Shown here: piece after piece, positions 2,952 to 18,300 of the stretch | Layout of the letters: every line of letters begins with the position of its first letter | Position numbering within the stretch: position 1 is the stretch's first letter | Source: a virus | Strand: one strand, 5' to 3' | DNA length: 22,941 nt | IMG/VR virus record: IMGVR_UViG_3300010160_002841 | Location: 1 to 22,941 of that record | Made by a program: the position numbers and the translations under genes | The notes under the pieces: generated by a model | Databases searched by the model: none | What the model saw: the letters and a program-made list of their open reading frames with translations, nothing else | What the model was told of the DNA's origin: nothing

Positions 2952-3060
2952 TTACATGAAAGAAAAATTTCGTTATGTTAAGAAAGAGGATCGTAAGAAG
3001 ATTCTTTTGTTATGCGATGATATTAGGATGCATTCCGGTATCGCAACTATGGCCAGATAG

Positions 3061-3897
3061 ATTGTTGTAGGAACGTCTCACCACTTTAACTGGATTAATC
3101 TAGGAGCAGCAATCAACCACCCAGAAGCAGGAAAAGGATTTGATATCTCAGGAGAGGTAAATAAGTTAAACGGTATTGATGATTCTTGGGTGAGAGTCTT
3201 ACCAAACAACGGATATGGAGATGCAATGCAGGTTAGAGCTTTAATTGCACAAGAGCAACCAGATGCTATTTTTATCTTTACAGATCCAAGATACTGGGTA
3301 TGGTTATTTGAAATAGAAAGAGAGATTAGAAATGAAATTCCTCTAATGTACCTAAACATTTGGGATGACTATCCAGCACCTCTTTATAATAAGCCGTACT
3401 ATGAATCATGTGATCTATTATTAGCTATTTCAAAACAGACTAAAAATATTAATGAACTAGTTTTAGAAGAAAAAGCCAAAGATAAAATTATTAAATACCT
3501 TCCTCACGGAATAAACCACGAACATTTCTTTCCAATGACTTCGGTAGAAGAATTAAAAGCTTTAGGAGAATTTAAGAAAGACTTATTTCAAGGGAAAGAC
3601 ATTGAGTTTGTAGCACTTTTTAACTCTAGAAATATCAGAAGAAAATCTCCAGGAGATGTAATTCTTTCTTATAGAATGTTCTGTGATATGATCGGAGAAG
3701 AGAAAGCAAAAAAATGTGCTTTAGTAATGCATACACAAGCTGTAGATGAAAATGGTACAGATCTTTATGCAGTAAGAGAAGCAATTTGTGATGACAGTTA
3801 TGTGAATGTATTTTTCTCACAAGAGAGATTAGGTACTCCTCAAATGAATTTACTATATAATATAGCAGACGTTGGAATGCTTATTACTTCAAACTAA
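3061..3897 (+). CDS. Fragment: N-terminal and middle part of the broken GT4 glycosyltransferase
   Basis: Open segment between the two premature stops of the gene starting at 2956. The only early start-like codon is a GTG at 3190, with no ribosome binding site and lying inside conserved sequence (DDSWVRVLPNNGYGD), so independent translation is doubtful. It holds the acceptor-side Rossmann half of the GT-B fold and ends one codon before the E-x7-E motif would be completed. Read it as part of one gene, not as a separate protein. Confidence 0.5.
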   Translation: MVVGTSHHFNWINLGAAINHPEAGKGFDISGEVNKLNGIDDSWVRVLPNNGYGDAMQVRALIAQEQPDAIFIFTDPRYWVWLFEIEREIRNEIPLMYLNIWDDYPAPLYNKPYYESCDLLLAISKQTKNINELVLEEKAKDKIIKYLPHGINHEHFFPMTSVEELKALGEFKKDLFQGKDIEFVALFNSRNIRRKSPGDVILSYRMFCDMIGEEKAKKCALVMHTQAVDENGTDLYAVREAICDDSYVNVFFSQERLGTPQMNLLYNIADVGMLITSN

Positions 3898-4398
3898 GGA
3901 TGGGGATTATCTTTAACTGAAACTATGATGGCAGGTAAGATGATTATTGCTAACGTAACAGGAGGTATGCAAGATCAGATGAGATTTGTTGACGAGAATG
4001 GTAAGTGGCTTGACTTTACTTCTGACTTCCCATCTAATCACAGAGGTACTTACAAAGAGCATGGAGAGTGGGCAGTACCAGTATTCCCTTCAAACATCTC
4101 AATGGTAGGTTCAGTTCCAACTCCATACATATTTGATGATAGATTTGCACCAGAAGACGTTGCAAAAGCTTTAGAAGAAGTTTACAACATGGGTAAAGAG
4201 GAGAGAGACAGAAGAGGATTAGCAGCTAGAGCATGGGTAACCTCAGATGAATCAGGAATGTCAGCACGTCAAATGTGTGAGAATGTAATCGATTCAATGG
4301 ATGAAACATTTGAAAAGTTTGTTCCTAGAACAAGATACGATCTACATAAAGTAACAGACAGGCCGAAAAAATACGTTAAACATAAATTAATATACTAG
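3898..4398 (+). CDS. Fragment: C-terminal donor-binding part of the broken GT4 glycosyltransferase
   Basis: Open segment after the TAA at 3895. It begins GWGLSLTE, the second half of the donor-binding motif, and carries the rest of the C-terminal GT-B domain. The first Met codons are at 3925 and 3928, within the motif helix, so a product starting there would lack the motif. It ends 2 bases before the next glycosyltransferase. Confidence 0.5.
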   Translation, partial: GWGLSLTETMMAGKMIIANVTGGMQDQMRFVDENGKWLDFTSDFPSNHRGTYKEHGEWAVPVFPSNISMVGSVPTPYIFDDRFAPEDVAKALEEVYNMGKEERDRRGLAARAWVTSDESGMSARQMCENVIDSMDETFEKFVPRTRYDLHKVTDRPKKYVKHKLIY

Positions 4399-6202: not shown

Positions 6203-6823
6203 ATGAAAATAAGTTATGCAATAACAGTTTGTAATGAATTGGAGGAAGTGAAAAGACTAGTCAACTTCCTCCTTTCCAACAAACGTAAAGAAGACGAGAT
6301 AGTAGTACTAGCAGATAGTCCTAAAATGTCTCAAGAACTACAAGAAACTCTTAGAGAGTATTCCTCTTTGAATCAAATACTTTTAATCGAATCTGAATTT
6401 GAAGGACACTTTGCTGACTGGAATAATAAATTCTTTAAAGTATGCTCAGGAGATTATATCTTTCAGATAGATGCTGATGAGATTCCACATATCAATTTAA
6501 TTGAAAACCTACCTACAATGTTAGAGTCTAACGATGTTGATATGGTTAGAGTTCCTAGAGTAAATACTGTAGAGGGTTTAACTCAAGAACATATTCAGAA
6601 ATGGGGATGGAATGTAAACGAAAAAGGATGGGTCAATTGGGCTGATTGGCAAATGAGAATCTATAAGAATGCTCCTCACATCAGATGGAAAAATAAAGTA
6701 CACGAAGTACTAGAAGGATTCAAAATACATGGAATGCTTCCAGTAGAAGAGGAATGGGCTCTATACCATCCAAAGACAATCGACAGACAAGAGAGACAGA
6801 ATAACTACTACAACACTTTATGA
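6203..6823 (+). CDS. GT2-family glycosyltransferase
   Basis: Glycosyltransferase of 206 residues with a GT-A fold. The N-terminus (ISYAITVCNELEEVKRLVNFL) is the standard GT2 opening, followed by a strand VVLADS. The metal- and nucleotide-binding DXD is D90-A91-D92 in FQIDADEIPH. A later region with several Trp (WADWQMRIYKN, then IRWKNKVHEVLEGF) matches the acceptor half of small GT2 enzymes such as lipooligosaccharide glucosyltransferases (WaaE/LgtF-like). The protein is short for the family but seems complete. It ends in ATGA overlapping the gmd start, so it is coupled to nucleotide-sugar synthesis. Sugar specificity is not visible. Confidence 0.85.
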   Translation: MKISYAITVCNELEEVKRLVNFLLSNKRKEDEIVVLADSPKMSQELQETLREYSSLNQILLIESEFEGHFADWNNKFFKVCSGDYIFQIDADEIPHINLIENLPTMLESNDVDMVRVPRVNTVEGLTQEHIQKWGWNVNEKGWVNWADWQMRIYKNAPHIRWKNKVHEVLEGFKIHGMLPVEEEWALYHPKTIDRQERQNNYYNTL

Positions 6824-7791
6824 AAAAAGCTTTAATAACAGGAATAAACGGACAAGACGGATCATATCTAGCTGAGTTGTTATTAGAAAAAGGTTACGAG
6901 GTTTGGGGAACAGTAAAGAGAAATTCTGTAGCTGAGAATCAAACAGCAAGACTAGATAAGGTATATAGTAAAATCAAATTGGAATATGCCGACTTAACAG
7001 ACCTAGCATCACTTGTAAGAGTAGTTGCAAAGGTACAGCCAGATGAATTGTATAACCTAGCAGCACAATCACATGTTAGAATATCTTTTGATCAACCACT
7101 ATATACAGCCAATGCAACAGGAATAGGTACTTTGAATGTACTTGAAGCAGTAAAGCTTGTATCACCTAACACGAAAATATACCAAGCATCATCTTCAGAA
7201 ATGTTTGGAAATAGTATTGACGAGGATAGATTCCAAAGAGAAAATACACCTCTTAATCCAGTATCACCTTACGGATGTGCTAAAGTATTTGCATATAACA
7301 TCAGTAGAAATTACCGTAACTCTTACGGTATGTTTGTGTCAAACGGTATCTTATTCAATCATGAATCACCTCGTAGAGGTACAAACTTTGTTACAAATAA
7401 AGTATGTAAGGAAGCAGTTAAGATTAAGTTAGGATTATCGAATGAATTAAAGTTAGGAAACTTAGATGCTACAAGGGACTGGGGTCATGCTAAGGATTAT
7501 GTTTATGCAATGTGGTTAATACTTCAACAAGACAAGCCAGACGATTTTGTTTGCTCAACAGGAGTATCACATTCAGTACAAGAGTTATGTGAATATGTAT
7601 TTGGTAAATTAGGATTAGATTGGAAGGAATATGTTAAGCAGGATGAAAAGTTCTTACGTCCGGAAGAGTTACATGACTTAAAAGGAGATTGTTCTAAGTT
7701 AGTTAAAGCAACAGGATGGAAGCATGAATATACTTTTGAAAGTATGTTAGATGAAATGATTGAATATTGGATAAATTATTATAAAAAATGA
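6820..7791 (+). CDS. gmd: GDP-mannose 4,6-dehydratase
   Basis: Converts GDP-D-mannose to GDP-4-keto-6-deoxy-D-mannose, the first step to GDP-L-fucose, GDP-rhamnose and related sugars. It is an extended SDR of 323 residues. Visible features are the NAD(P) loop TGINGQDGSYLAELLL at 7-22, the VKRNS loop typical of this enzyme, NLAAQSHV, the active-site SSSEMFG near 125, Y151-x3-K155 in SPYGCAKVF, and NHESPRRGTNFVT. All catalytic residues are present. It overlaps both neighbours by ATGA and is followed by GDP-fucose synthase. Host central metabolism would supply GDP-mannose. Confidence 0.95.
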   Translation: MKKALITGINGQDGSYLAELLLEKGYEVWGTVKRNSVAENQTARLDKVYSKIKLEYADLTDLASLVRVVAKVQPDELYNLAAQSHVRISFDQPLYTANATGIGTLNVLEAVKLVSPNTKIYQASSSEMFGNSIDEDRFQRENTPLNPVSPYGCAKVFAYNISRNYRNSYGMFVSNGILFNHESPRRGTNFVTNKVCKEAVKIKLGLSNELKLGNLDATRDWGHAKDYVYAMWLILQQDKPDDFVCSTGVSHSVQELCEYVFGKLGLDWKEYVKQDEKFLRPEELHDLKGDCSKLVKATGWKHEYTFESMLDEMIEYWINYYKK

Positions 7792-8696: not shown

Positions 8697-10043
8697 ATGA
8701 TTAATAAAAAACAAGAGATTTTAAATTCAATTAGAGATTACGTTAAGCAATCACAAAAAGAGAAAACATGGAAAGAAGGAGAAGACTGGGTACAATACTC
8801 AGGGCCGTACTTTGACGATGAGGAATTTGTAGCCGGAGTAGAATCATTACTTAATGGATGGTTTATCTTAGGAGAAAAAGGTAGAGAGTTTGAAAAGAAG
8901 TTTGCACCGTTCTTAGGAAAGACTGATGGTATTATTGTAAACTCTGGAAGTTCTGCTAACCTTTTAATGGTAGCAATGTTAAAATCTAAAAGAGGAGGAG
9001 CATTAGCAGAAGGTAGTAAATTCATTACCCCTGTAGTATGTTTTCCAACAACAATTAATCCTTTAATTCAAAACGGATACATTCCAGTATTTGTTGATGT
9101 TGAATTACCAAACCTAAACTTAAATTTAGATCAAGTAGAAAAGTTATTGGAAGAGGATACTAACAGAGAGATTAAGGGTATTATCTTTGCTCACGTATTA
9201 GGTAATCCACCTGATATGGATCGATTAATGGCTATTGTTAAAAAGTATGACTTAATATACTTAGAAGATTGCTGTGATGCTTTAGGATCAACTTGGGATA
9301 ACCAACCCTTAGGATCTTTCGGAAAGATCTCAACATGCTCATTCTTCCCAGCACATCACATGACAACAGGTGAAGGAGGATTTGTAGCTTGTAATAATAT
9401 TAAACAAAGAATGTTATTGGCTTCTTTAAGAGACTGGGGACGTGCTTGTTACTGTAATACTTCTAAGCCAGGTAACGTTACTTGCGGTACAGCTTGTGGA
9501 GTTAGGATGAGTAACTGGTTTAAAAAGTACCCTGAATTAACTTACGATCACCGTTATGTGTTTGATGAGATTGGATATAACTTAAAGCCAACAGAAATGC
9601 AAGCAGCTATTGGATTAAAACAAATCGAAAAGCTAGATGTGATGCATGAAAGACGTAAAGAGAACTTTAAGAAGTTACGTACTATCTTTGAAAAGTATGA
9701 GCAATACTTCCACTTACCTTACGCTTTAGATAAAGCAGATGTTAGTTGGTTTGGATTCCTATTAACATTAAAAGATGGAGCTCCATTTGAAAAGAATGAT
9801 TTAGTAGAGTTCCTAGAGGCTAGTAAAATCCAAACAAGATCTTACTTTACAGGTAATGCATTATTTCATCCAGCCTATACAGATCTTCCAATGTTTGCTC
9901 ATTATACAGATCCTGTTAATGAATTCCCAATAGCGACTAAGACTACAAAAGATACATTCTTCTTAGGAGTATTTCCAGGAATTACAGAAGCACAGTTAGA
10001 TTATATTGGTAGAATGGTTGATAAATTCTTTGAAACTATTTAA
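8697..10043 (+). CDS. rfbH: RfbH/E1-like NDP-4-keto-6-deoxyhexose 3-dehydratase (PLP, [2Fe-2S])
   Basis: Member of the DegT/DnrJ/EryC1/StrS fold, 448 residues. In aminotransferases of this family a Lys binds PLP; here the motif is SFFPAHHMTTGEGGF with His at 220, the change that marks 3-dehydratases (E1/AscC/RfbH, ColD). C193, C251 and C253 (CYC), with C263 and C267, match the conserved cysteines that hold the [2Fe-2S] cluster of E1, which ColD lacks. E1 removes the C3 hydroxyl of CDP-4-keto-6-deoxyglucose on the way to 3,6-dideoxyhexoses, working with a ferredoxin-type reductase (E3). No E3 and no CDP-glucose enzymes are in the window. The preceding genes supply a GDP-4-keto-6-deoxyhexose, so the substrate is open. 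Confidence 0.85.
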   Translation: MINKKQEILNSIRDYVKQSQKEKTWKEGEDWVQYSGPYFDDEEFVAGVESLLNGWFILGEKGREFEKKFAPFLGKTDGIIVNSGSSANLLMVAMLKSKRGGALAEGSKFITPVVCFPTTINPLIQNGYIPVFVDVELPNLNLNLDQVEKLLEEDTNREIKGIIFAHVLGNPPDMDRLMAIVKKYDLIYLEDCCDALGSTWDNQPLGSFGKISTCSFFPAHHMTTGEGGFVACNNIKQRMLLASLRDWGRACYCNTSKPGNVTCGTACGVRMSNWFKKYPELTYDHRYVFDEIGYNLKPTEMQAAIGLKQIEKLDVMHERRKENFKKLRTIFEKYEQYFHLPYALDKADVSWFGFLLTLKDGAPFEKNDLVEFLEASKIQTRSYFTGNALFHPAYTDLPMFAHYTDPVNEFPIATKTTKDTFFLGVFPGITEAQLDYIGRMVDKFFETI

Positions 10044-10882
10044 TGAGTTATATTACTTTTAAATCTTTAGGAGAAGCAGGTAATTTAGCCTCTCAAATGC
10101 AACAGTATGCTTCTTTGTATGCTGTTGCAAAAGAGACAGGTAAGAAGATAGTATTCCCTGAGTCAAGTATTAATAGAGGATATACTTTTAAGTTTGCTGA
10201 AGTACTGGATATAGATATAGAGGTAAAGCCGGATAGCTTCTTTAGTAACTTTGTAAATGTACGTCCTAATGATAGTCTACTTTTTGATAGTAAGGTATTT
10301 CAATTAGATAAAAATACTAATTACAATATTGAAAATAGGTTTGACTACTACGGGTACTGGTATGAGAAGTATTCCAAAGATATAGCAGATTGGAAATGGA
10401 GAGAGAATTACTACACTACAGCAAACAAGCAATACTCAGAGATAAAAATACAAGGGAAAGAGACAGTAGCAATACACGTAAGAAGAGGAGACTACTTACT
10501 CCCTCAACATAATCATTTCTGTAGATTAGATACGGAGTATTACGGAGCAGCATTAGAGTACTTCTTTGAAGATATTGATAAGTATCAGTTCTTAATATTT
10601 TAAAATGATATTGAATGGTGTAAGGAAAATCTAATTGAAGAGAGTGAAATAGTTGCCTTTATAGAGCCAGGATTAGATTATGTAGATTTAATAATGATGA
10701 GCTTATGTGACCATACAATAACTGCTAACAGTTCTTACAGCTGGTGGGCTGGTTATTTGAATAAAAATATCGGTAAAAAAGTAATATGTCCTACAAATTA
10801 CTTAATGGGATTTAGTCCATGGTCTCATATAAACGAAAACTATTATCCGCCGACTTGGATTAATATTGATAATAAAAATTAA
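10043..10882 (+). pseudogene. GT11 alpha-1,2-fucosyltransferase-like, interrupted by an in-frame stop
   Basis: One frame of 279 codons plus stop, cut by TAA at 10601-10603 (codon 187). The first part has the GT11 opening (SLGEAGNLASQMQQYASLY) and the GDP-binding HVRRGDYL at 145-152. After the stop the same frame continues NDIEWCKENL, then CDHTITANSSYSWWAGYLN, the conserved GT11 C-terminal motif. Both halves are needed for a complete catalytic domain. GT11 enzymes transfer L-fucose from GDP-fucose, the product of the upstream genes. The start overlaps the previous stop (TAATG). The fragments are 10043-10603 and an open part from 10604 with a Met at 10694. Decay, error and readthrough remain possible. 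Confidence 0.85.
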
Positions 10883-10885
10883 AAA

Positions 10886-11842
10886 ATGACAAAAGTAGTT
10901 TACGTAACAGGTTGTTTAGGTTTTATAGGATCTTATGTAACAAGAGCATGTCTGAATAAAGGATGGTATGTGAAAGGAGTTGATAAGATGACCTACGCAG
11001 CTAATAAAAACCTATTAGCAGAATTCAATGAATACAGTAACTTTTCATTTGTTAACTGTGATATAAATGATTTAAAGTTTCTCTACGACTGTGACTATGT
11101 AATTAATACAGCTGCAGAAACACACGTAGGTAACTCCATATCTAACTCAGATGATTTTGTGCATTCAAATGTAAATGGAGTACATAATCTATTGGAGTTA
11201 ATACGGAACCATAGAGGAGAGAATGTCTCTAAGCCTATCTTACTTCACTTTAGTACGGATGAAGTATATGGAGATATTGAAGAGGGAGAGCATATTGAAA
11301 CAGATCTACTTAAGCCTTCCAATCCATACTCAGCTACAAAAGCAGCAGCAGATATGTTAGTAACAGCATGGGGTAGGACTTATAAACTTCCTTACATAAT
11401 TATTAGGCCAACTAACAATTATGGAATAGGTCAGTATGTAGAGAAGTTAATACCTAAAGCTTGTAAGTATTTAAAGCTTGGTAAAAAGATCCCATTACAC
11501 AATAATGGTACTCCAATTAGGAACTGGCTACATGCAAGTGGTACAGCTCAAGCAGTAATTACAATTATTGAATCAGGAGTACAGAATGAAATATATAACA
11601 TCTGTGGAGGATTTGAGCAAAGTAATTTGGATACTATTAAAAAAGTTCTTACATTACATAAAGGTAGTGCTGATATAGATATTGAATCTTATATAGACTT
11701 AACACTAAAGAGGCAAGGACAGGATGTTCGCTATGCTTTAAATGATGACAAGCTAAGAGCATTAGGATGGACACCTCAAGTATCGTTTGATACAGAATTA
11801 AAATATATTGTAGAATATTCTAAAGAAAAATTTATATGGTAA
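10886..11842 (+). CDS. RmlB-like NDP-glucose 4,6-dehydratase (extended SDR)
   Basis: Extended SDR of 318 residues closest in motifs to dTDP-glucose 4,6-dehydratase: TGCLGFIGSYV nucleotide loop, VDKMTYAANKNLL (the RmlB-type D.LTYAGN loop), NTAAETHVGNSI, the active-site STDEVYGD (S123, T124, D125, E126), Y148-x3-K152 in NPYSATKAA, and RPTNNYGIGQYVEKLIP. All catalytic residues are present. It would form a 4-keto-6-deoxyhexose from an NDP-glucose, or act on a related sugar such as UDP-GlcNAc; the nucleotide is not settled by sequence. No RmlA, C or D genes are present. Its end overlaps the HAD gene by 7 bases, so it belongs to the downstream operon. Confidence 0.85.
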   Translation: MTKVVYVTGCLGFIGSYVTRACLNKGWYVKGVDKMTYAANKNLLAEFNEYSNFSFVNCDINDLKFLYDCDYVINTAAETHVGNSISNSDDFVHSNVNGVHNLLELIRNHRGENVSKPILLHFSTDEVYGDIEEGEHIETDLLKPSNPYSATKAAADMLVTAWGRTYKLPYIIIRPTNNYGIGQYVEKLIPKACKYLKLGKKIPLHNNGTPIRNWLHASGTAQAVITIIESGVQNEIYNICGGFEQSNLDTIKKVLTLHKGSADIDIESYIDLTLKRQGQDVRYALNDDKLRALGWTPQVSFDTELKYIVEYSKEKFIW

Positions 11843-12129
11843 TTTATATTGACATAGATGAAACTATCTGCAACAGTCCAGATAAACCAGATTACACTAC
11901 TAGTACACCTATTGTAGAAAATATTAACAAAGCAAATAAATTATACGAAGAAGGAAACTTAATTGTATACTGGACAGCTAGAGGAACAGGAACAGGAGTT
12001 GATTGGACAGAAGTTACTATAAAGCAATTTAAAGAATGGGGAGTAAAGTATCATGGGTTAAAATTTGGAAAACCTAATTACGATCTCTTTATTGATGATA
12101 AAAATATGAACACAAATAATTGGAAATAA
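11836..12129 (+). CDS. Small HAD-type phosphatase
   Basis: Protein of 97 residues with a minimal HAD core: the nucleophile motif DIDETI with D6 and D8, a second motif YWTARG near residue 49, and a third with Lys then FIDDKN (about 84-92). These are the motifs of HAD phosphatases that remove phosphate from sugar phosphates or nucleotides. Capsule and LPS loci often contain such short cap-less versions. Its position between an RmlB-like enzyme and a NeuB-like synthase suggests action on a sugar-phosphate intermediate of the same pathway. The product of a NeuB-type reaction may carry such a phosphate, but the substrate is inference. Confidence 0.75.
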   Translation: MVIYIDIDETICNSPDKPDYTTSTPIVENINKANKLYEEGNLIVYWTARGTGTGVDWTEVTIKQFKEWGVKYHGLKFGKPNYDLFIDDKNMNTNNWK

Positions 12130-12132
12130 ACT

Positions 12133-13209
12133 ATGAATAATAAAATTTTTAAAAACTTATTTGTTTTAGAATTAGCAAATAACCATTGGGGAGATTTAGA
12201 AAGAGGGAAAGAGATAGTTCGACAATTTGCAAAAGTTGTAAAGGATAATAACGTACATGCAGCTATTAAGCTACAGTTTAGAGATACCGATACGTTTATT
12301 CATAAAGACTTTAAAGAAGTAGGTGAAGGAGTAGACCTAACAACACTTCCTAAACGTAGCAGATATATTCAGAAGCAATCAAGAACTAAGTTAAATTATG
12401 AACAATTTAAAGAGTTAGTTGACTATATTAAAAAACATGACTGTATTCCTATGTCAACACCTTTTGATGAAAAATCAGTTGACTGGTGCGTTAGTATGGA
12501 CTTACCTATTATTAAAATAGCAAGCTCAGATATTAACGATTGGGTACTTTTAAATAAAATTGCTACAACAAAAAAGCCTGTAATCATCTCTACAGGTGGT
12601 GCTAATGATAAACAAATTGATGATGTTATCAAGTTCTTTACCAATCGTAACATACCTATTGCCGTAAATCACTGTGTATCGAAATATCCTAGTGAGGATA
12701 ATGAACTTGAATTGGATCAAATTGATTATTTGAAAGGTAAGTATCCTGAGTTAGTTATAGGTCTATCCACGCATGAGTACCACGATTGGCATTCATCAAT
12801 GTATATCTCTTATGCAAAAGGAGCTCGTACTTGGGAACGACATATAGATATTCCTTATCCAAAAGGTCATGAACAAAAAGAAGTTTCTAATTATTGCTCA
12901 CTTCCTCATCAAGTAGATGAATGGTTTAAAGCTTTTAATCGATCAGTAACAATGTGCGGTACATCAGATAACGTAAGAAGAGTTGTAGATGAGAAAGAGT
13001 CAAACTATTTAGAAGCCCTATACCGAGGATTATACCTTAAACAAGATCTTAAAAAAGGTACTAAAATTACATTAGAACATTTATATAGTGCTATTCCGTA
13101 TCAAAAGGAGATAGGACACATTACATCAAGACAGTATTTTGACGGAGATTTTATATTAAATAAAGATATTAAAAAAGATGCTCCGTTAACTAAAGAGGAT
13201 ATTATATGA
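12133..13209 (+). CDS. NeuB-like sialic-acid-synthase family protein with SAF domain
   Basis: Protein of 358 residues: a TIM barrel (about 1-285) and a C-terminal SAF/antifreeze-type domain (about 290-350, LYLKQDLKKGTKITLEHLYSAIP). NeuB enzymes condense phosphoenolpyruvate with an N-acetylhexosamine-type sugar to make nonulosonic acids (sialic, legionaminic or pseudaminic acid). The usual EAGxNHNG opening is replaced by ELANNHWG. Other family landmarks are present: KLQF, MSTPFDEKSV, KIASSDIN, ISTGGAN, NHCVSKYP, GLSTHE and ERHIDI. This divergent subfamily occurs in environmental surface-polysaccharide loci. No NeuA (CMP transferase) or NeuC/NeuD gene lies in the window, so the product may not be a classical sialic acid. 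It is coupled to the ThDP gene by ATGA. Confidence 0.82.
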   Translation: MNNKIFKNLFVLELANNHWGDLERGKEIVRQFAKVVKDNNVHAAIKLQFRDTDTFIHKDFKEVGEGVDLTTLPKRSRYIQKQSRTKLNYEQFKELVDYIKKHDCIPMSTPFDEKSVDWCVSMDLPIIKIASSDINDWVLLNKIATTKKPVIISTGGANDKQIDDVIKFFTNRNIPIAVNHCVSKYPSEDNELELDQIDYLKGKYPELVIGLSTHEYHDWHSSMYISYAKGARTWERHIDIPYPKGHEQKEVSNYCSLPHQVDEWFKAFNRSVTMCGTSDNVRRVVDEKESNYLEALYRGLYLKQDLKKGTKITLEHLYSAIPYQKEIGHITSRQYFDGDFILNKDIKKDAPLTKEDII

Positions 13210-14945
13210 TAAAAGTTGCAGACTTTGTTATAGATTACTTTGCTAAAAAGAATATAGATACAGCCTTCACAATTTCAGGTGGAGGTTGTATTTATCTTAT
13301 AGAAGCTTTACGTAAATCTAAAATGGACGTAATATGTCCTCACCATGAACAGTCTGCGTTAATGGCAAGTGAAGGGTATTTTAGAATGAAAAATAAACTA
13401 TCACTAAACGTAGTAACAACAGGTCCGGGAGGAACTAATACCATAACAGGTCTATTAGGACTTTGGTTAGATAGTATTCCCTCTATTATTATATCTGGAC
13501 AAGTACCAAGCTCTCAGCTATCGGAAGGTACAGGATGCAGACAGATTGGCGATCAAGAGTTCAACATTGTAGAGGTAGTAAAGCCTATGACCAAGTATGC
13601 AGTAATGGTTAGAAATAGTAGTGAGATTCTTCAAATACTTGATCAAGCTTATTTTGAAGCAACCACAGGAAGGCCAGGTCCTGTATGGATCGACATACCT
13701 TTAGATATTCAAGGAGCTTTTATAGAAGAAGCTTCACTAAAAGGATTTACAGGTAAAGTAGGTACTCTACCTCCTACTAAGGAAGATATTGAAACTTTTA
13801 AACAATTACTACATCAAGCTAAAAAACCTTTAGTAGTTGTAGGTAGTGGAATAAGACTTTCTGATACATACGATGAATTAAATAGCTTTCTAATCAAAAC
13901 AGGTATTCCAGTCGTAACAGGGCCACACTCAGGGGTAGACGTTATAGACAATACACTACCTAACTATTGTGGACGAATAGGTATACTAGGACAGCTTACC
14001 TCAAATACTATTGTACAAGAAGCAGATCTAATAATTGGATTAGGTACAAGACTCCCAGTGAAGATGACCGGATATAATATATCTGAATTTTCACCAAAGT
14101 CTAAAAAAATATTTGTAGATATTGATAAGTTTGAAGTTAATAAACATTCTTTTGCTGTAGAGCAAGCTATCATTACTGACTTAAAGCTATTCTTCAATAG
14201 CATAGAAGATCTTAACTACAACGGAGATATACAAGACTGGGCTAATTATACTATGACGTTGCGAAAAAGTCAACAGTACTATCACCCTAAGCATAAAGAT
14301 ATAAAAGACTATGCTTCTTTCTATTACTTAATCAATAAAGCTCCAAGTATTTTTAAAAATACACCTATTGTTACAAGTAATGGAACTGCACATGTTATTA
14401 CTTTACAGATGTATCAGTTGAATAAAGATCAAAGGCTATTCACTAATGTAGGATGTGCAAGTATGGGATACGGTCTTCCTGCTGCTATTGGAGCATGTAT
14501 TGGAAATGATAGGCAGAATGTTATCTGTATTGAGGGGGATGGAAGTATTATGATGAACTTACAGGACTTAGAAACTATCCGAGGATATAACTTACCAGTT
14601 AAAATTATCATAATAAATAACGAAGGGTACCTATCTATTAAGCTATCACAAGAAGCTTTCTTTGAAGGTAATGAATTCGCAAGTGGCCCATCTAATGGTG
14701 TTACTATTCCTAGCTTTGAAAAAATTGCAAAAGCTTTTGATTTGAATTACCTTAGTATTAAATCAAACGATAAGATAGAAGAAGTACTATCTACAATTAT
14801 GGATCAGGAAGGACCTTGTATTGTAGAAGTATTTACTCATCCAAAAGAGAGACATGAACCTAAAGTCGTACATAAAGGAGTAGATGAAAAAGGACGAATT
14901 ATACGAGGTACATTAACAGATATGTATATATCAGATTCATACTAA
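13206..14945 (+). CDS. Thiamine-diphosphate enzyme, acetolactate synthase family
   Basis: Protein of 579 residues with the three domains of the acetolactate-synthase/pyruvate-decarboxylase family: PYR (about 1-165, with the catalytic Glu as E48 in CPHHEQSA and TGPGGTNT), a central domain (about 185-330) and PP (about 370-560, with G444-D445-G446-S447 and N471-N472, the Mg-ThDP motif). All cofactor residues are present. Relatives transfer two-carbon units from pyruvate; YerE, for example, adds an acetyl branch to a 3,6-dideoxy-4-ketohexose in yersiniose synthesis. This is compatible with the RfbH-like gene upstream, but nothing in the sequence fixes the acceptor. A phage is unlikely to need branched-chain amino acid synthesis, and no regulatory subunit is present. 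Confidence 0.85.
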   Translation: MIKVADFVIDYFAKKNIDTAFTISGGGCIYLIEALRKSKMDVICPHHEQSALMASEGYFRMKNKLSLNVVTTGPGGTNTITGLLGLWLDSIPSIIISGQVPSSQLSEGTGCRQIGDQEFNIVEVVKPMTKYAVMVRNSSEILQILDQAYFEATTGRPGPVWIDIPLDIQGAFIEEASLKGFTGKVGTLPPTKEDIETFKQLLHQAKKPLVVVGSGIRLSDTYDELNSFLIKTGIPVVTGPHSGVDVIDNTLPNYCGRIGILGQLTSNTIVQEADLIIGLGTRLPVKMTGYNISEFSPKSKKIFVDIDKFEVNKHSFAVEQAIITDLKLFFNSIEDLNYNGDIQDWANYTMTLRKSQQYYHPKHKDIKDYASFYYLINKAPSIFKNTPIVTSNGTAHVITLQMYQLNKDQRLFTNVGCASMGYGLPAAIGACIGNDRQNVICIEGDGSIMMNLQDLETIRGYNLPVKIIIINNEGYLSIKLSQEAFFEGNEFASGPSNGVTIPSFEKIAKAFDLNYLSIKSNDKIEEVLSTIMDQEGPCIVEVFTHPKERHEPKVVHKGVDEKGRIIRGTLTDMYISDSY

Positions 14946-14946
14946 T

Positions 14947-15576
14947 ATGAAAATATTTTTAACAGGAGGTAGCAGTGGTATTGGGCTTACAATTAAGAAT
15001 ACTCTACAACAAGCTGGTATTGAAGTAATATCTCCTACATCTAAAGAATTAGATTTAAGTACTGATTTTACTGTAGATCCTATAACTGTAGACGGTTTTA
15101 TACATTGTGCAGGAATTAATCCTATAGCAGATCATAAAGATATTAATCAAATTGACCTACTAAAAACATTTCAGATTAATACTTTTAGCTTTATAAAACT
15201 ATGCACTCAACTATCTTTTACTCAAGGAAGTAATATAGTTGCTATAGGATCACTATACTCAACACAAGCTAAAGAATCTCGTATACAATATACAATGTCC
15301 AAACATGCATTGTACGGAGCAGTAAAGACCTTAGCATTAGAAAAAGCTATAGATAAAATAAAAGTTAATCTAATATCTCCAGGATTTGTCGATACTCCAC
15401 TTACACGTAAGAATGTTTCTGAGGAGAGGATAAGCTTTCTGGATAAAAATATACCATTAGGGTTAACAGACAGTTGTGAAATTGCAAATTTATGCTTATA
15501 TTTAATTAAACAAAACAACGCAATAACAGGACAAAATATAAAAATAGACGGAGGATACTCCTTAAAGAACTTATGA
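14947..15576 (+). CDS. Short-chain dehydrogenase/reductase
   Basis: Classical SDR of 209 residues: TGGSSGIG cofactor loop at 6-13, CAG near residue 56, catalytic S102 with Y115-x3-K119 (YTMSK), SPGFVDTPLT, and the C-terminal IDGGYSL. All catalytic residues are present, so it should oxidise a hydroxyl or reduce a keto group with NAD(P). It is shorter than the usual 240-260 residues, mostly by loss in the first half. It starts 1 base after the ThDP gene and overlaps the cyclase by ATGA, so it probably works on the product of one of them, as YerF-type reductases do after YerE. The substrate is not determined. Confidence 0.87.
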   Translation: MKIFLTGGSSGIGLTIKNTLQQAGIEVISPTSKELDLSTDFTVDPITVDGFIHCAGINPIADHKDINQIDLLKTFQINTFSFIKLCTQLSFTQGSNIVAIGSLYSTQAKESRIQYTMSKHALYGAVKTLALEKAIDKIKVNLISPGFVDTPLTRKNVSEERISFLDKNIPLGLTDSCEIANLCLYLIKQNNAITGQNIKIDGGYSLKNL

Positions 15577-16598
15577 CAAACAAATTTACAATACAGGGAA
15601 AAGAATTTGAAGTATCTACAGATATTCAAACAGAGATGACAATTCAATCAACACCATCACCTTATAAGGTAGTCTTTGAAGACTTTAATAATACATTTAC
15701 AGAAAAAGATGTAGTATTAGTTGATAAAAATGTAAGAGCGTTGTACGATATACAACATACAAAGCTTATTGAAATGGAAGCTATAGAAGAGAATAAATCT
15801 ATTGAAACAGTGCTTGGTATTTGTGAAAAATTATTAGAATATAAATTTGATAAAGGATGTACTCTAGTAGTTATAGGAGGAGGTATCTTACAAGACCTTG
15901 GAGCATTTACTGCTAAGGTATACAAAAGAGGTATTAACTGGTGTTTTGTTCCAACAACACTTCTTTCTCAATGTGATAGTTGTATCGGAGGTAAGACAGC
16001 GTTAAATTTTAAATCCTATAAGAATCAATTAGCATTATTTTCTGCTCCTCAAAAAGTAATAATAGATACAAAGTTCTTAAGTACATTAAAGAAGGAAGAT
16101 ATTGCATCAGGATATGGAGAAATAGTAAAACTATTTTTAATAGGAGGAGAGTATTACGTATCTAATATAGAAAATTTTGATATAAAAACATCAATCTATC
16201 ACTCCTTAGTGATAAAACAAGCTGTAGTAGAGTATGATGAGTTTGAATATCTAGAAAGAAAATCACTTAATTACGGACATTCTTTTGGACACGTAATAGA
16301 AACACTGACAGGGTATAAGATACCTCACGGAGAAGCTGTACTACTAGGTATTTACATTATAAATAAACTATTTAATAACTCAGCAAAGATTACTAATATA
16401 GTAGAGAAGTACGCATCATTAAGTAAGCTATCAGGAATTGATACAGACGCTTTAGTTAATAATCTTGTAACAGATAAGAAAGTTGTAAACGGAATAATTT
16501 CATTAGTGGTAGTGAATGTTCCTGGAGAGACAGTATTTGTAGAATCGCCTATTGATAGTAATTTAGTAAAAAGAGTTTATGAAATATTTGCTAATTGA
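15573..16598 (+). CDS. Sugar-phosphate cyclase, 3-dehydroquinate synthase (AroB)-like
   Basis: Protein of 341 residues with the AroB fold: NAD-binding VVIGGGILQDLGAF at about 94-107, VPTTLLSQCDSCIGGKTALNF, KNQLALF, and the metal ligands E183 (SGYGEIVK), H236 and H252 (LNYGHSFGHVIE, IPHGEAV), whose 16-residue spacing matches E194/H271/H287 of dehydroquinate synthase. The family closes seven-carbon sugar phosphates to cyclic ketones: DAHP to dehydroquinate, or sedoheptulose 7-phosphate to valiolone-type cyclitols. A lone shikimate step would be odd in a glycan operon. The sugar kinase that overlaps its end by 20 bases suggests a specialised cyclitol or sugar product. Dehydroquinate synthase cannot be told from valiolone-type synthase by eye. 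Confidence 0.85.
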   Translation: MTNKFTIQGKEFEVSTDIQTEMTIQSTPSPYKVVFEDFNNTFTEKDVVLVDKNVRALYDIQHTKLIEMEAIEENKSIETVLGICEKLLEYKFDKGCTLVVIGGGILQDLGAFTAKVYKRGINWCFVPTTLLSQCDSCIGGKTALNFKSYKNQLALFSAPQKVIIDTKFLSTLKKEDIASGYGEIVKLFLIGGEYYVSNIENFDIKTSIYHSLVIKQAVVEYDEFEYLERKSLNYGHSFGHVIETLTGYKIPHGEAVLLGIYIINKLFNNSAKITNIVEKYASLSKLSGIDTDALVNNLVTDKKVVNGIISLVVVNVPGETVFVESPIDSNLVKRVYEIFAN

Positions 16599-17526
16599 TT
16601 TTGGTGCATCTTTTATAAAAACAGCTACTTACAATAGTACTAATAACTCTTTAGAAAATTTTCAAGAAATAAAATCACCCTTTGCAGAAAAGAATATTGT
16701 AAGTAAAGATACTATACAGACAATCTTTTTTGAAATAGTAAAGTTATATAAAGATGTAGATAGGGTGGTAGCATGCAGCATATTGGGAGGATATTATAAA
16801 GACAATTTATACTATTCTTGGAAGGTTGCTGAAAAAGTAAAGGGAACCTCTTGTTTACTTAGTGAGTTGTTTAGAGAAGAAAAAACATTTCACGTACATG
16901 AACATCATAGAGATGCAATCGATGCACAGGAGTATGTAAAGGGATTAGAGGTTTTAGGTTATGTTAATAAAATTCCTGTGTATAGCATACTGGGAGATAC
17001 AGACTGTGTTACAGAATCTCTACAACTAACACCAAAGACTGCAGCAATTAATATTGGAACAGGATCACAAGTTATTACTTCTACAGAAAGATATAGCTTT
17101 ATTCCAGCAGGAAGATCTTTTCTAGTATTTGAGGAATTGTTTAACTCGCTAGGACTATCACTCTTTGACTACTTGAACCAACTATCAGTCTCAGATGTTA
17201 GTAATAGTTCTTTGAAGGTAAATTTAAATAATTTTAAACAGTCTCATAAATACAAAACAGGAGGTTCAATTGAATTTATTGAAGAAGGATCTTTTAATAT
17301 AAAAAATTTAGCAGGATCCATACTTAAAGAAATGGTACTTCAATACTCAGAGTACATAGAGAGTAGTGAAATAAATACTCTACTAATTGTAGGAGGTATA
17401 CCTCAAAAGTTACCTATACTGTACGACCTTTTTAAACAATACTATTCAGAAATGGATATTAAAATTGAGAGTAATAAAGTAAGCACACACCAAGGTTTGA
17501 TTAGATACATAAACAAATATTTATAA
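16579..17526 (+). CDS. ASKHA-superfamily sugar kinase, FGGY/sedoheptulokinase-like
   Basis: Protein of 315 residues. The N-terminus LLIDFGASFIKTA is the phosphate-1 loop of the actin-like (ASKHA) kinases. GDTDCVTESL near 140 followed by AAINIGTGSQVITS is the hinge/phosphate-2 region, close in pattern to sedoheptulokinase-type FGGY enzymes. The end has LLIVGGIPQKLP, the adenosine motif. It is shorter than the usual 450-500 residues of FGGY kinases. A kinase for a seven-carbon ketose would supply the substrate of the AroB-like cyclase just upstream; this link is inference. The start codon lies 20 bases inside the cyclase gene and the next gene starts directly after its stop. Confidence 0.7.
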   Translation: MKYLLIDFGASFIKTATYNSTNNSLENFQEIKSPFAEKNIVSKDTIQTIFFEIVKLYKDVDRVVACSILGGYYKDNLYYSWKVAEKVKGTSCLLSELFREEKTFHVHEHHRDAIDAQEYVKGLEVLGYVNKIPVYSILGDTDCVTESLQLTPKTAAINIGTGSQVITSTERYSFIPAGRSFLVFEELFNSLGLSLFDYLNQLSVSDVSNSSLKVNLNNFKQSHKYKTGGSIEFIEEGSFNIKNLAGSILKEMVLQYSEYIESSEINTLLIVGGIPQKLPILYDLFKQYYSEMDIKIESNKVSTHQGLIRYINKYL

Positions 17527-18300
17527 ATGAAAATTTTAATTACAGGAGGGAATGGATATATAGCAAAAAGTATTGCTAATAGTCTCTGGGAAAAATATCA
17601 TATAATATCTCCTGGAAGAGAAGAATTAGATTTGCTTGATTCTAAATCTGTAGATACTTTTTTTGAAGGAAAATATTTCGATGTTGTAATACATACTGCA
17701 ACAGTAGGAGGAAGTAGATTAAAAGAAGAAGATGAGACTGTTAGCTTTTATAATCTAATTATGTTTTATAATTTAATCAGAAAAAAAGAACAGTTTAATA
17801 AATTAATTTCTTTTGGTTCAGGAGCAGAATTTAAAACAGACTATACACCTTATGGGTTTAGTAAAAAGATAATAAATAAACTTATTCATAAACATGATAA
17901 TTTTTATAACTTAAGAATATATGCAGTGTTTGATCAAAATGAATTAGAGACAAGATTTATAAAAGCTAGTATTAAAAATGTATTACAAAATGCTCCGATA
18001 AAAATACATCAAGATAAATTAATGGATTTTATCTATATGCCAGATCTAATCTCTATAGTTGAATACTACCTAACAGGAAAAGATCTTCCAAAAGAGGTAG
18101 ACTGTATATACAACGATACTGTCTCGTTAAGTAAAATAGCTCAGCAAATAAATAATCTATCAACAAATAAAGTTCCAATCAATATAGAAGATCCTCTTCC
18201 AGGACAAAATTATATAGGAACTTACAGCGAGCTTCCAATAGCCTTTATAGGATTGGAACAAGGAATTAAAAATGTTTATACTAAATTAAAGGTAAAATGA
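17527..18300 (+). CDS. NAD-dependent epimerase/dehydratase (SDR)
   Basis: Protein of 257 residues with the extended-SDR opening MKILITGGNGYIAKSIANSL, the strand FDVVIHTATVGGSR, LISFGSGAEF and Y-x3-K as YGFSK near residue 117, then NLRIYAVFDQNE and a C-terminal substrate region. It resembles short sugar-nucleotide epimerases or reductases (RmlD or fucose-synthase type) and keeps the catalytic Tyr/Lys. The stretch after the YxxxK is shorter than usual. It begins immediately after the kinase stop and overlaps the next gene by ATGA. It probably finishes or modifies the sugar built by the preceding genes. Substrate unknown. Confidence 0.8.
   Translation: MKILITGGNGYIAKSIANSLWEKYHIISPGREELDLLDSKSVDTFFEGKYFDVVIHTATVGGSRLKEEDETVSFYNLIMFYNLIRKKEQFNKLISFGSGAEFKTDYTPYGFSKKIINKLIHKHDNFYNLRIYAVFDQNELETRFIKASIKNVLQNAPIKIHQDKLMDFIYMPDLISIVEYYLTGKDLPKEVDCIYNDTVSLSKIAQQINNLSTNKVPINIEDPLPGQNYIGTYSELPIAFIGLEQGIKNVYTKLKVK

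Follow-up and report, generated by a model that had tools for sequence, protein, structure and literature searches.

The closest described relatives of the locus reported here are bacterial pathways in which a thiamine diphosphate (ThDP)-dependent enzyme grafts a carbon chain onto a 4-ketosugar. YerE, the enzyme of yersiniose A synthesis, favours pyruvate and transfers a C3 chain at most; ErwE of Pectobacterium joins hydroxylated 2-oxo acids, not pyruvate, to cytidine diphosphate (CDP)-4-keto-3,6-dideoxyglucose to give erwiniose; and MMAR_2332 of Mycobacterium marinum, from the caryophyllose pathway, is reported to use 4-hydroxy-2-oxo acids like ErwE (PMC12247030). The structure 8rph is that of JanthE (PMC12188165). 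A 2025 review mentions viruses merely as a possible place for such enzymes (PMC12247030), and in the open-licence literature we found no paper describing, in phages, the cassette reported below or virus-borne synthesis of sugars of the erwiniose/caryophyllose class. Here we analyse the virus record IMGVR_UViG_3300010160_002841 (22,941 bases; hereafter the window, whose numbering all coordinates follow). It carries six adjoining genes for a NeuB-like synthase, a ThDP enzyme, a short-chain dehydrogenase/reductase (SDR), an AroB-like protein, a sugar kinase and an epimerase-like protein (Epi). We propose that this cassette probably makes a 4-C-branched sugar of the erwiniose/caryophyllose class.

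With the erwiniose and caryophyllose pathways the cassette shares a ThDP enzyme of ErwE/YerE type and an expected 4-hydroxy-2-oxo acid donor, and its bacterial relatives share the supply of CDP-4-keto-3,6-dideoxyhexose by RfbF, RfbG and RfbH. It differs from them in being phage-borne, in having a NeuB-like donor maker and an RmlB-like rather than RfbG supply, and in an extra kinase-AroB-SDR block. Grafting onto a 4-ketosugar, as by YerE, is likewise predicted for the cassette, but with a donor that is probably hydroxylated and longer than pyruvate.

Composition of the cassette

All six open reading frames are intact and lie on one strand (+) at 12133-18300 (Table 1). A first-pass annotation of this DNA had described six intact, tightly packed genes with ATGA or short overlaps, and coordinates and junctions agree with it: NeuB/ThDP and SDR/AroB meet in ATGA overlaps, ThDP and SDR are separated by 1 base, AroB and kinase overlap by 20 bases, and kinase and Epi abut with no gap, so that no gap or overlap exceeds 20 bases. 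The catalytic residues it named are likewise all present, namely E48, GDGS at 444 and NN at 471 in the ThDP protein, E183, H236 and H252 in the AroB-like protein, S102, Y115 and K119 in the SDR, and the N-terminal loops DFGAS and GTGSQ in the kinase. Its statement that none of the six is a normal phage gene needs care, as phrog_11199, a phage family without an assigned function, is matched by the ThDP protein at 328 bits. For that family, the analysis of the ThDP enzyme suggests a function.

The ThDP enzyme and its donor

Among solved structures, JanthE is nearest to the ThDP protein at 353 bits, and the best acetolactate synthase reaches 261. The protein stays below the acetolactate-synthase equivalog cut-offs, with a top score of 357 bits where 738 is required and, for acolac_lg, 352 where 538 is required. 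In a quick tree with long branches it groups with the ThDP proteins of bacterial and mycobacterial clusters, apart from mycobacterial acetolactate synthases. A supply context for a nucleoside diphosphate (NDP)-4-keto-deoxyhexose is also present in the window, in the form of RmlB-like and RfbH genes. By sequence, the protein is closest to the YerE/ErwE/JanthE-type carboligases, not to acetolactate synthase. The acceptor arginine of acetohydroxyacid synthase did not discriminate cleanly between acetolactate synthases and YerE-like enzymes: many cluster ThDP proteins have R at this position, and the window protein has K.

The NeuB-like protein scores far below the equivalog cut-offs for NeuB (125 bits against 400) and PseI (140 against 340), and sialic or pseudaminic acid synthesis was rejected on these scores. 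We then compared which enzymes accompany the ThDP gene in 106 dereplicated AroB-like loci, with families named by Pfam and NCBIfam on representatives. All locus counts given here come from pattern-based scans and are lower bounds, and the loci are related lineages rather than independent cases. Among the 77 loci with both AroB and ThDP, 68 carry exactly one of NeuB (24), HpcH (22) and an HMGL-like aldolase (22); two carry two donor-type enzymes, and seven have none within 7.5 kb. The kinase is present in 23 of the 24 NeuB loci and in none of the 44 HpcH or HMGL loci. NeuB-type phosphoenolpyruvate (PEP) synthases, class II pyruvate aldolases, HMGL-type aldolases and sugar-acid dehydratases are unrelated in sequence and all yield 2-oxo-3-deoxy (4-hydroxy-2-oxo) acids. 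It is mainly because such unrelated acid-making enzymes interchange beside one ThDP gene that we take a 2-oxo-3-deoxy acid to be the ThDP donor. Caryophyllose, 3,6-dideoxy-4-C-(1,3,4,5-tetrahydroxyhexyl)-hexose, has a branch CH2 next to the graft carbon and a terminal CH3, as expected from a donor of this kind (PMC5706390).

The same association extends to mycobacteria. In 9 of 198 mycobacterial genomes (the genus was reached, and is assigned, through a PE-protein marker), a ThDP protein scores clearly above the acetolactate synthases (242-356 bits against at most 216). These ThDP genes adjoin RfbF/G/H, and NeuB is present in five of the genomes. Three genomes combine the ThDP gene with HpcH, AroB and an FGGY kinase, and an SDR was recognised in two of them. 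In the one remaining genome, at locus L239, the YerE-like ThDP gene lies beside genes for an enolase-superfamily (MR_MLE) dehydratase and for mannitol-dehydrogenase-family and inositol-monophosphatase-family proteins, apparently a fourth route to the 2-oxo acid, seen in a single case.

The first-pass annotation had offered, as one reading, a YerE-like branched sugar built with a pyruvate-derived two-carbon unit. The kind of sugar stands, given the JanthE-like ThDP protein and the RfbF/RfbG/RfbH genes of the bacterial loci. The two-carbon unit is probably wrong, as enzymes making 2-oxo-3-deoxy acids are coupled to the ThDP gene and ErwE is reported to refuse pyruvate (PMC12247030).

ThDP type and the SDR-AroB-kinase block

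Phages differ in whether they carry the SDR, AroB and kinase genes, and this difference is reflected in the ThDP enzyme. When 31 phage loci are compared, a single change on the ThDP tree suffices to account for presence of the block (99% of bootstrap trees), against six for the NeuB tree (at least three forced) and nine for the Epi tree (at least five forced). The window and phage locus L007 are 78-87% identical in DNA on both flanks, with 13.7-17.5 kb replaced; L033/L013 and L023-L024/L022 are further exchange pairs. Because the ThDP tree splits by the block and the NeuB and Epi trees do not, we place the probable action of the block on the donor, after NeuB and before ThDP. On the simplest reading, both kinds of phage make the same NeuB acid, the block alters that acid, and the ThDP enzyme fits the altered donor; this reading takes the coupling to be functional and not a matter of physical linkage alone.

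The AroB-like protein, the SDR and the kinase

The AroB-like protein shares with dehydroquinate synthase (AroB) its fold and every tested active-site residue, but it lies outside the AroB branch. Its best NCBIfam model is TIGR04425, an AroB-related putative sugar phosphate phospholyase (cyclizing) family of unproven function, yet it reaches only 286 bits against a cut-off of 400, and it scores 226 against the aroB model TIGR01357 (cut-off 305). A quick, midpoint-rooted tree separates 100 AroB-like rows from canonical AroB, on a branch of their own with a Shimodaira-Hasegawa approximate likelihood-ratio (SH-aLRT) support of 99, so that the tree comparison proposed in the first-pass annotation places the protein outside true AroB. 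Two annotated sedoheptulose-7-phosphate cyclases also fall outside the AroB-like branch. Canonical AroB above cut-off occurs as well in 8 of 12 tested genomes with an AroB-like gene; the protein thus accompanies rather than replaces canonical AroB in most of them. In the other four, all metagenome-assembled (L035, L038, L040 and L043: a Legionella, two Elusimicrobiota and one archaeon), canonical AroB above cut-off was not found.

The dehydroquinate-synthase positions kept are E183, H236, H252, R119, D135, K141, N151, K186, K215, R229, N233, H240, K302 and K303. At 215, 229, 233 and 240 the two annotated sedoheptulose-7-phosphate cyclases have M, E/K, D and P where the window has K, R, N and H, and in place of K302/K303 they have A/V then L/R. 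We take K215 and R229 to be carboxylate-binding in dehydroquinate synthase. Retention of the dehydroquinate-synthase residues, together with absence of the cyclase ones, points to a 2-oxo acid substrate. The structure model (predicted local distance difference test, pLDDT, 91) has dehydroquinate synthases as its best structural matches.

Position 186 divides the family: it is Lys in all ThDP-linked loci and His in 14 of 15 loci linked to GmhA-like or PGDH-like genes, which argues for two AroB-like sub-types. The second, mostly with His at 186 and nearly always without an adjoining ThDP gene, is found in Pelagibacteraceae (L060, L084, L092, L098, L110, L113) and viruses (L132-L139, L157, L158). 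Its bacterial loci pair SDR-AroB with GmhA-like, PGDH-like, Gfo/Idh and KdsB-like genes, and by gene content this sub-type looks like it serves a different sugar-acid pathway.

The SDR gene lies directly upstream of AroB in 86 of the 102 dereplicated loci where this is visible. Pfam and NCBIfam searches with the kinase returned no match. Its AlphaFold model (pLDDT 87) has glycerol kinase and xylulokinase as best Foldseek matches (template modelling score about 0.6 on the query), so the ASKHA reading of the first-pass annotation holds on the model, fold and phosphate-binding loops fitting an FGGY/ASKHA-type kinase.

Recurrence in phages and bacteria

Scanning IMG/VR with the NeuB-like protein returned at least 32 viral loci at 54-86% identity. 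With this query alone, the order NeuB-ThDP-SDR-AroB-kinase recurs in at least 14 other phage loci, some of them near-duplicates, and in those 14 Epi comes next, directly or one gene later. Most of the other phage loci have NeuB-ThDP-Epi without SDR, AroB or kinase, and with a methyltransferase or other gene instead; a few contigs end before presence of the three can be judged. SDR, AroB and kinase thus behave as an all-or-none sub-block in phage NeuB loci. One phage without any of the three, L031, retains at 12894-12992, between ThDP and Epi, a stretch of 33 residues that matches the kinase and is likely a deletion scar. An Epi homolog is present in 29 of the 31 phage loci with NeuB and ThDP; the window shares this gene with AroB-lacking phages, at 86% identity to that of L007.

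An alignment of AroB-like proteins found at least 47 viral loci; NeuB is present in 18 of them, an HpcH/HpaI-type aldolase takes its place in another 18, and nine lack ThDP. A single-sequence AroB scan of viral contigs gave no match. The matches to the AroB query that we inspected in the phage collection proved to be the host gene: the aroK-aroB operon is present on an Acinetobacter 'phage' contig and on one from Salmonella. The same alignment found at least 80 bacterial and archaeal loci, among them Elusimicrobiota, Legionella and relatives, Clostridia, Chloroflexota and a Methanomassiliicoccaceae archaeon. Clostridium thailandense PL3 and Desulfosporosinus metallidurans OL have the version with the HMGL-like aldolase. 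RfbF, RfbG or RfbH is present in 44 of 55 bacterial loci, and in one Elusimicrobium all three score well above curated cut-offs. The first-pass annotation had allowed that homologs of these genes might never be found together in other genomes; they are found together repeatedly, and the recurrence of the cassette is far beyond chance.

Neighbouring genes

The functional block exceeds six genes. The six named in the first-pass annotation are as it stated, but its extent omitted the RmlB-like dehydratase and, often, the small HAD-like gene, which travel along. RmlB-cluster homologs occur in 27 and RfbH-cluster homologs in 29 of the 31 phage NeuB+ThDP loci. Related phages carry homologs of the GDP-mannose 4,6-dehydratase-like gene, with identity reaching 78%, and a Pfam search with the HAD-like protein returned no match. 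Upstream of the cassette are also a GDP-fucose-synthase-like gene and a family-11 glycosyltransferase gene, and glycosyltransferase-like genes flank the cassette on both sides. Phage-type genes nearby comprise an exonuclease (phrog_69) and a weak holin match.

Two of the glycosyltransferase genes are interrupted. That at 2956-4395 has two in-frame stops (3058, 3895), with intact copies in related phages such as L007; the family-11 (fucosyltransferase-like) gene at 10043-10882 has one at 10601, and relatives hold intact homologs. Between RmlB and NeuB, L003 (9455-9982) and its relatives often encode a conserved protein some 175 residues long, for which Pfam gave no match.

Table 1. Features of the cassette and its surroundings, in window coordinates.
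Feature	Position	Strand	Basis
GDP-mannose 4,6-dehydratase-like; possible 4-ketosugar supplier, optional part	6820..7791	+	GMD-like by sequence
RfbH-like pyridoxal phosphate-dependent 3-dehydratase (makes 3-deoxy-4-ketosugar)	8697..10043	+	NCBIfam NF011936 458 bits, cut-off 423 exceeded
RmlB-like 4,6-dehydratase; proposed source of NDP-4-keto-6-deoxyhexose acceptor	10886..11842	+	TIGR01181 298 bits, cut-off 365 not reached
Small HAD-like protein, possible phosphatase	11836..12129	+	phrog_1238 94 bits
NeuB-like PEP-condensing synthase with SAF domain	12133..13209	+	PF03102 140 bits, SAF
YerE/ErwE/JanthE-type ThDP carboligase	13206..14945	+	Three TPP Pfam domains; best PDB match JanthE 8rph
SDR reductase, partner of AroB-like enzyme	14947..15576	+	adh_short_C2 109 bits
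AroB-like phospholyase/cyclase with dehydroquinate-synthase residue set	15573..16598	+	DHQ_synthase/DHQS_C; TIGR04425 286 bits
Compact FGGY/ASKHA-type sugar kinase	16579..17526	+	AlphaFold model and Foldseek
NAD-dependent epimerase/reductase-like protein (Epi)	17527..18300	+	PF01370 (Epimerase) 55 bits

Discussion

From the gene content, the families, the conserved residues, the exchange of donor enzymes and the coupling of ThDP type to the SDR-AroB-kinase block, we infer the substrates, the order of steps and the absence of ring closure in the following pathway, which, the no-ring outcome set apart, we hold to be somewhat more probable than its competitors taken together. The RmlB-like enzyme, with RfbH, would provide an NDP-4-keto-6-deoxyhexose (or 3,6-dideoxyhexose) acceptor, and the NeuB-like enzyme would condense PEP with an aldose to a 2-oxo-3-deoxy acid. 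The block would act on this donor before the ThDP enzyme does: the kinase would phosphorylate the free end of the acid, and the AroB-like enzyme would strip that phosphate by the oxidation, elimination and reduction known from dehydroquinate synthase. The reaction would most likely halt before a ring closes, which would keep the 2-oxo acid and give a terminal methyl ketone for the SDR to reduce. The ThDP enzyme would then decarboxylate the 2-oxo acid and attach the resulting acyl unit at the C4 keto group of the NDP-sugar, and Epi would reduce the grafted ketone. Because of the surrounding glycosyltransferases and the surface-polysaccharide role of known relatives, we suggest that the sugar is used in a phage or host surface glycan.

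More tentatively, and at rather less than even confidence, AroB and SDR may form a deoxygenation module that tailors the ThDP donor in phages and bacteria, which would make the AroB-like protein a non-cyclising member of its family. We propose no ring because closure onto the 2-keto carbon, as in the dehydroquinate synthase reaction, would cost the ThDP enzyme its donor. If catalysis ended once elimination and reduction were complete, the SDR would have a methyl ketone to act on, and the chain would end in a methyl group as in caryophyllose. Baldwin's rules disfavour the closure of a five-membered ring from an endocyclic enolate, the case of a six-carbon substrate, so that the no-ring proposal fits better with a shorter chain or with an enzyme that keeps the intermediate from closing.

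Several points weigh against this pathway. A seven-carbon intermediate like 3-deoxy-arabino-heptulosonate 7-phosphate closes its ring easily in solution, and every characterised AroB-family enzyme that we know of cyclises. The NCBI title of TIGR04425 contains '(cyclizing)', and among the AroB-like positions checked, no active-site residue marks a loss of cyclisation. The pairing of NeuB with the kinase is not exclusive: the three mycobacterial HpcH loci also carry an FGGY kinase, which breaks any strict rule of kinase only with NeuB, and the Fisher p-value of 3e-17 from the dereplicated survey overstates the evidence, the loci being related lineages. The ThDP gene adjoins the AroB block, so their shared history could in part be linkage. 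The pathway as a whole is drawn from sequence, structure models and gene context, and its enzyme activities are predicted.

Among the alternatives, the best survivor, though an unlikely one, has the AroB-like enzyme cyclise the phosphorylated 2-oxo-3-deoxy acid to a dehydroquinate-like acid, which the SDR turns into a quinate-like cyclitol acid; a branched sugar would be a separate product of the ThDP enzyme, with pyruvate or another acid as donor. The dehydroquinate-synthase fold and the full set of conserved residues fit this, and the SDR-AroB pairs without ThDP in Pelagibacteraceae and some phages indicate that the pair can act alone. It leaves unexplained, however, why ThDP genes and 2-oxo-acid makers co-occur both with and without AroB, and why ThDP type tracks the presence of AroB when NeuB and Epi types do not. 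We give less credence still to an order in which AroB follows ThDP, so that a phosphorylated acyl unit is grafted on C4, the AroB-like enzyme then forms a ring at the grafted ketone to give a cyclitol C-linked to the sugar, and the SDR reduces the ring ketone. This order would use most of the genes, and with the kinase acting before ThDP it likewise predicts a different ThDP enzyme in AroB-positive phages. Yet the presumed carboxylate-binding residues would have no carboxylate to bind, and the graft ketone would be consumed, whereas Epi, its proposed reductase, occurs to the same extent in phages with and without AroB, and the two kinds are intermingled in its tree. Bradyrhizose and caryose were set aside as ring products: all their ring carbons presumably bear oxygen, and AroB chemistry leaves a ring CH2.

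The second reading of the first-pass annotation, a cyclitol from a seven-carbon ketose phosphate, fares badly. Membership of the sugar-phosphate-cyclase superfamily and the adjoining kinase could suggest a sedoheptulose-7-phosphate cyclase, but we consider this very improbable, as K215, R229, N233, H240 and K302/K303 are kept where the two annotated cyclases replace them, sedoheptulose 7-phosphate requires no kinase, and the cyclases branch separately. Automatic family names point to an auxiliary metabolism made up of ordinary genes for nonulosonic (sialic-acid-like) acids, branched-chain amino acids and shikimate. We regard this as the least credible explanation of all, given NeuB and AroB scores far below equivalog cut-offs, a ThDP protein nearer JanthE than acetolactate synthase, separate canonical aroB genes in most genomes tested and a conserved nucleotide-sugar context; the first-pass annotation, too, had judged that the genes do not fit amino-acid or shikimate synthesis.

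The exchange of donor enzymes beside one ThDP gene offers a rule for reading bacterial clusters, mycobacterial ones included, that are annotated as 'sialic acid synthase / acetolactate synthase / 3-dehydroquinate synthase'. If the AroB-like protein does eliminate phosphate without cyclising, as we tentatively propose, the reaction would be new to this long-known enzyme family.

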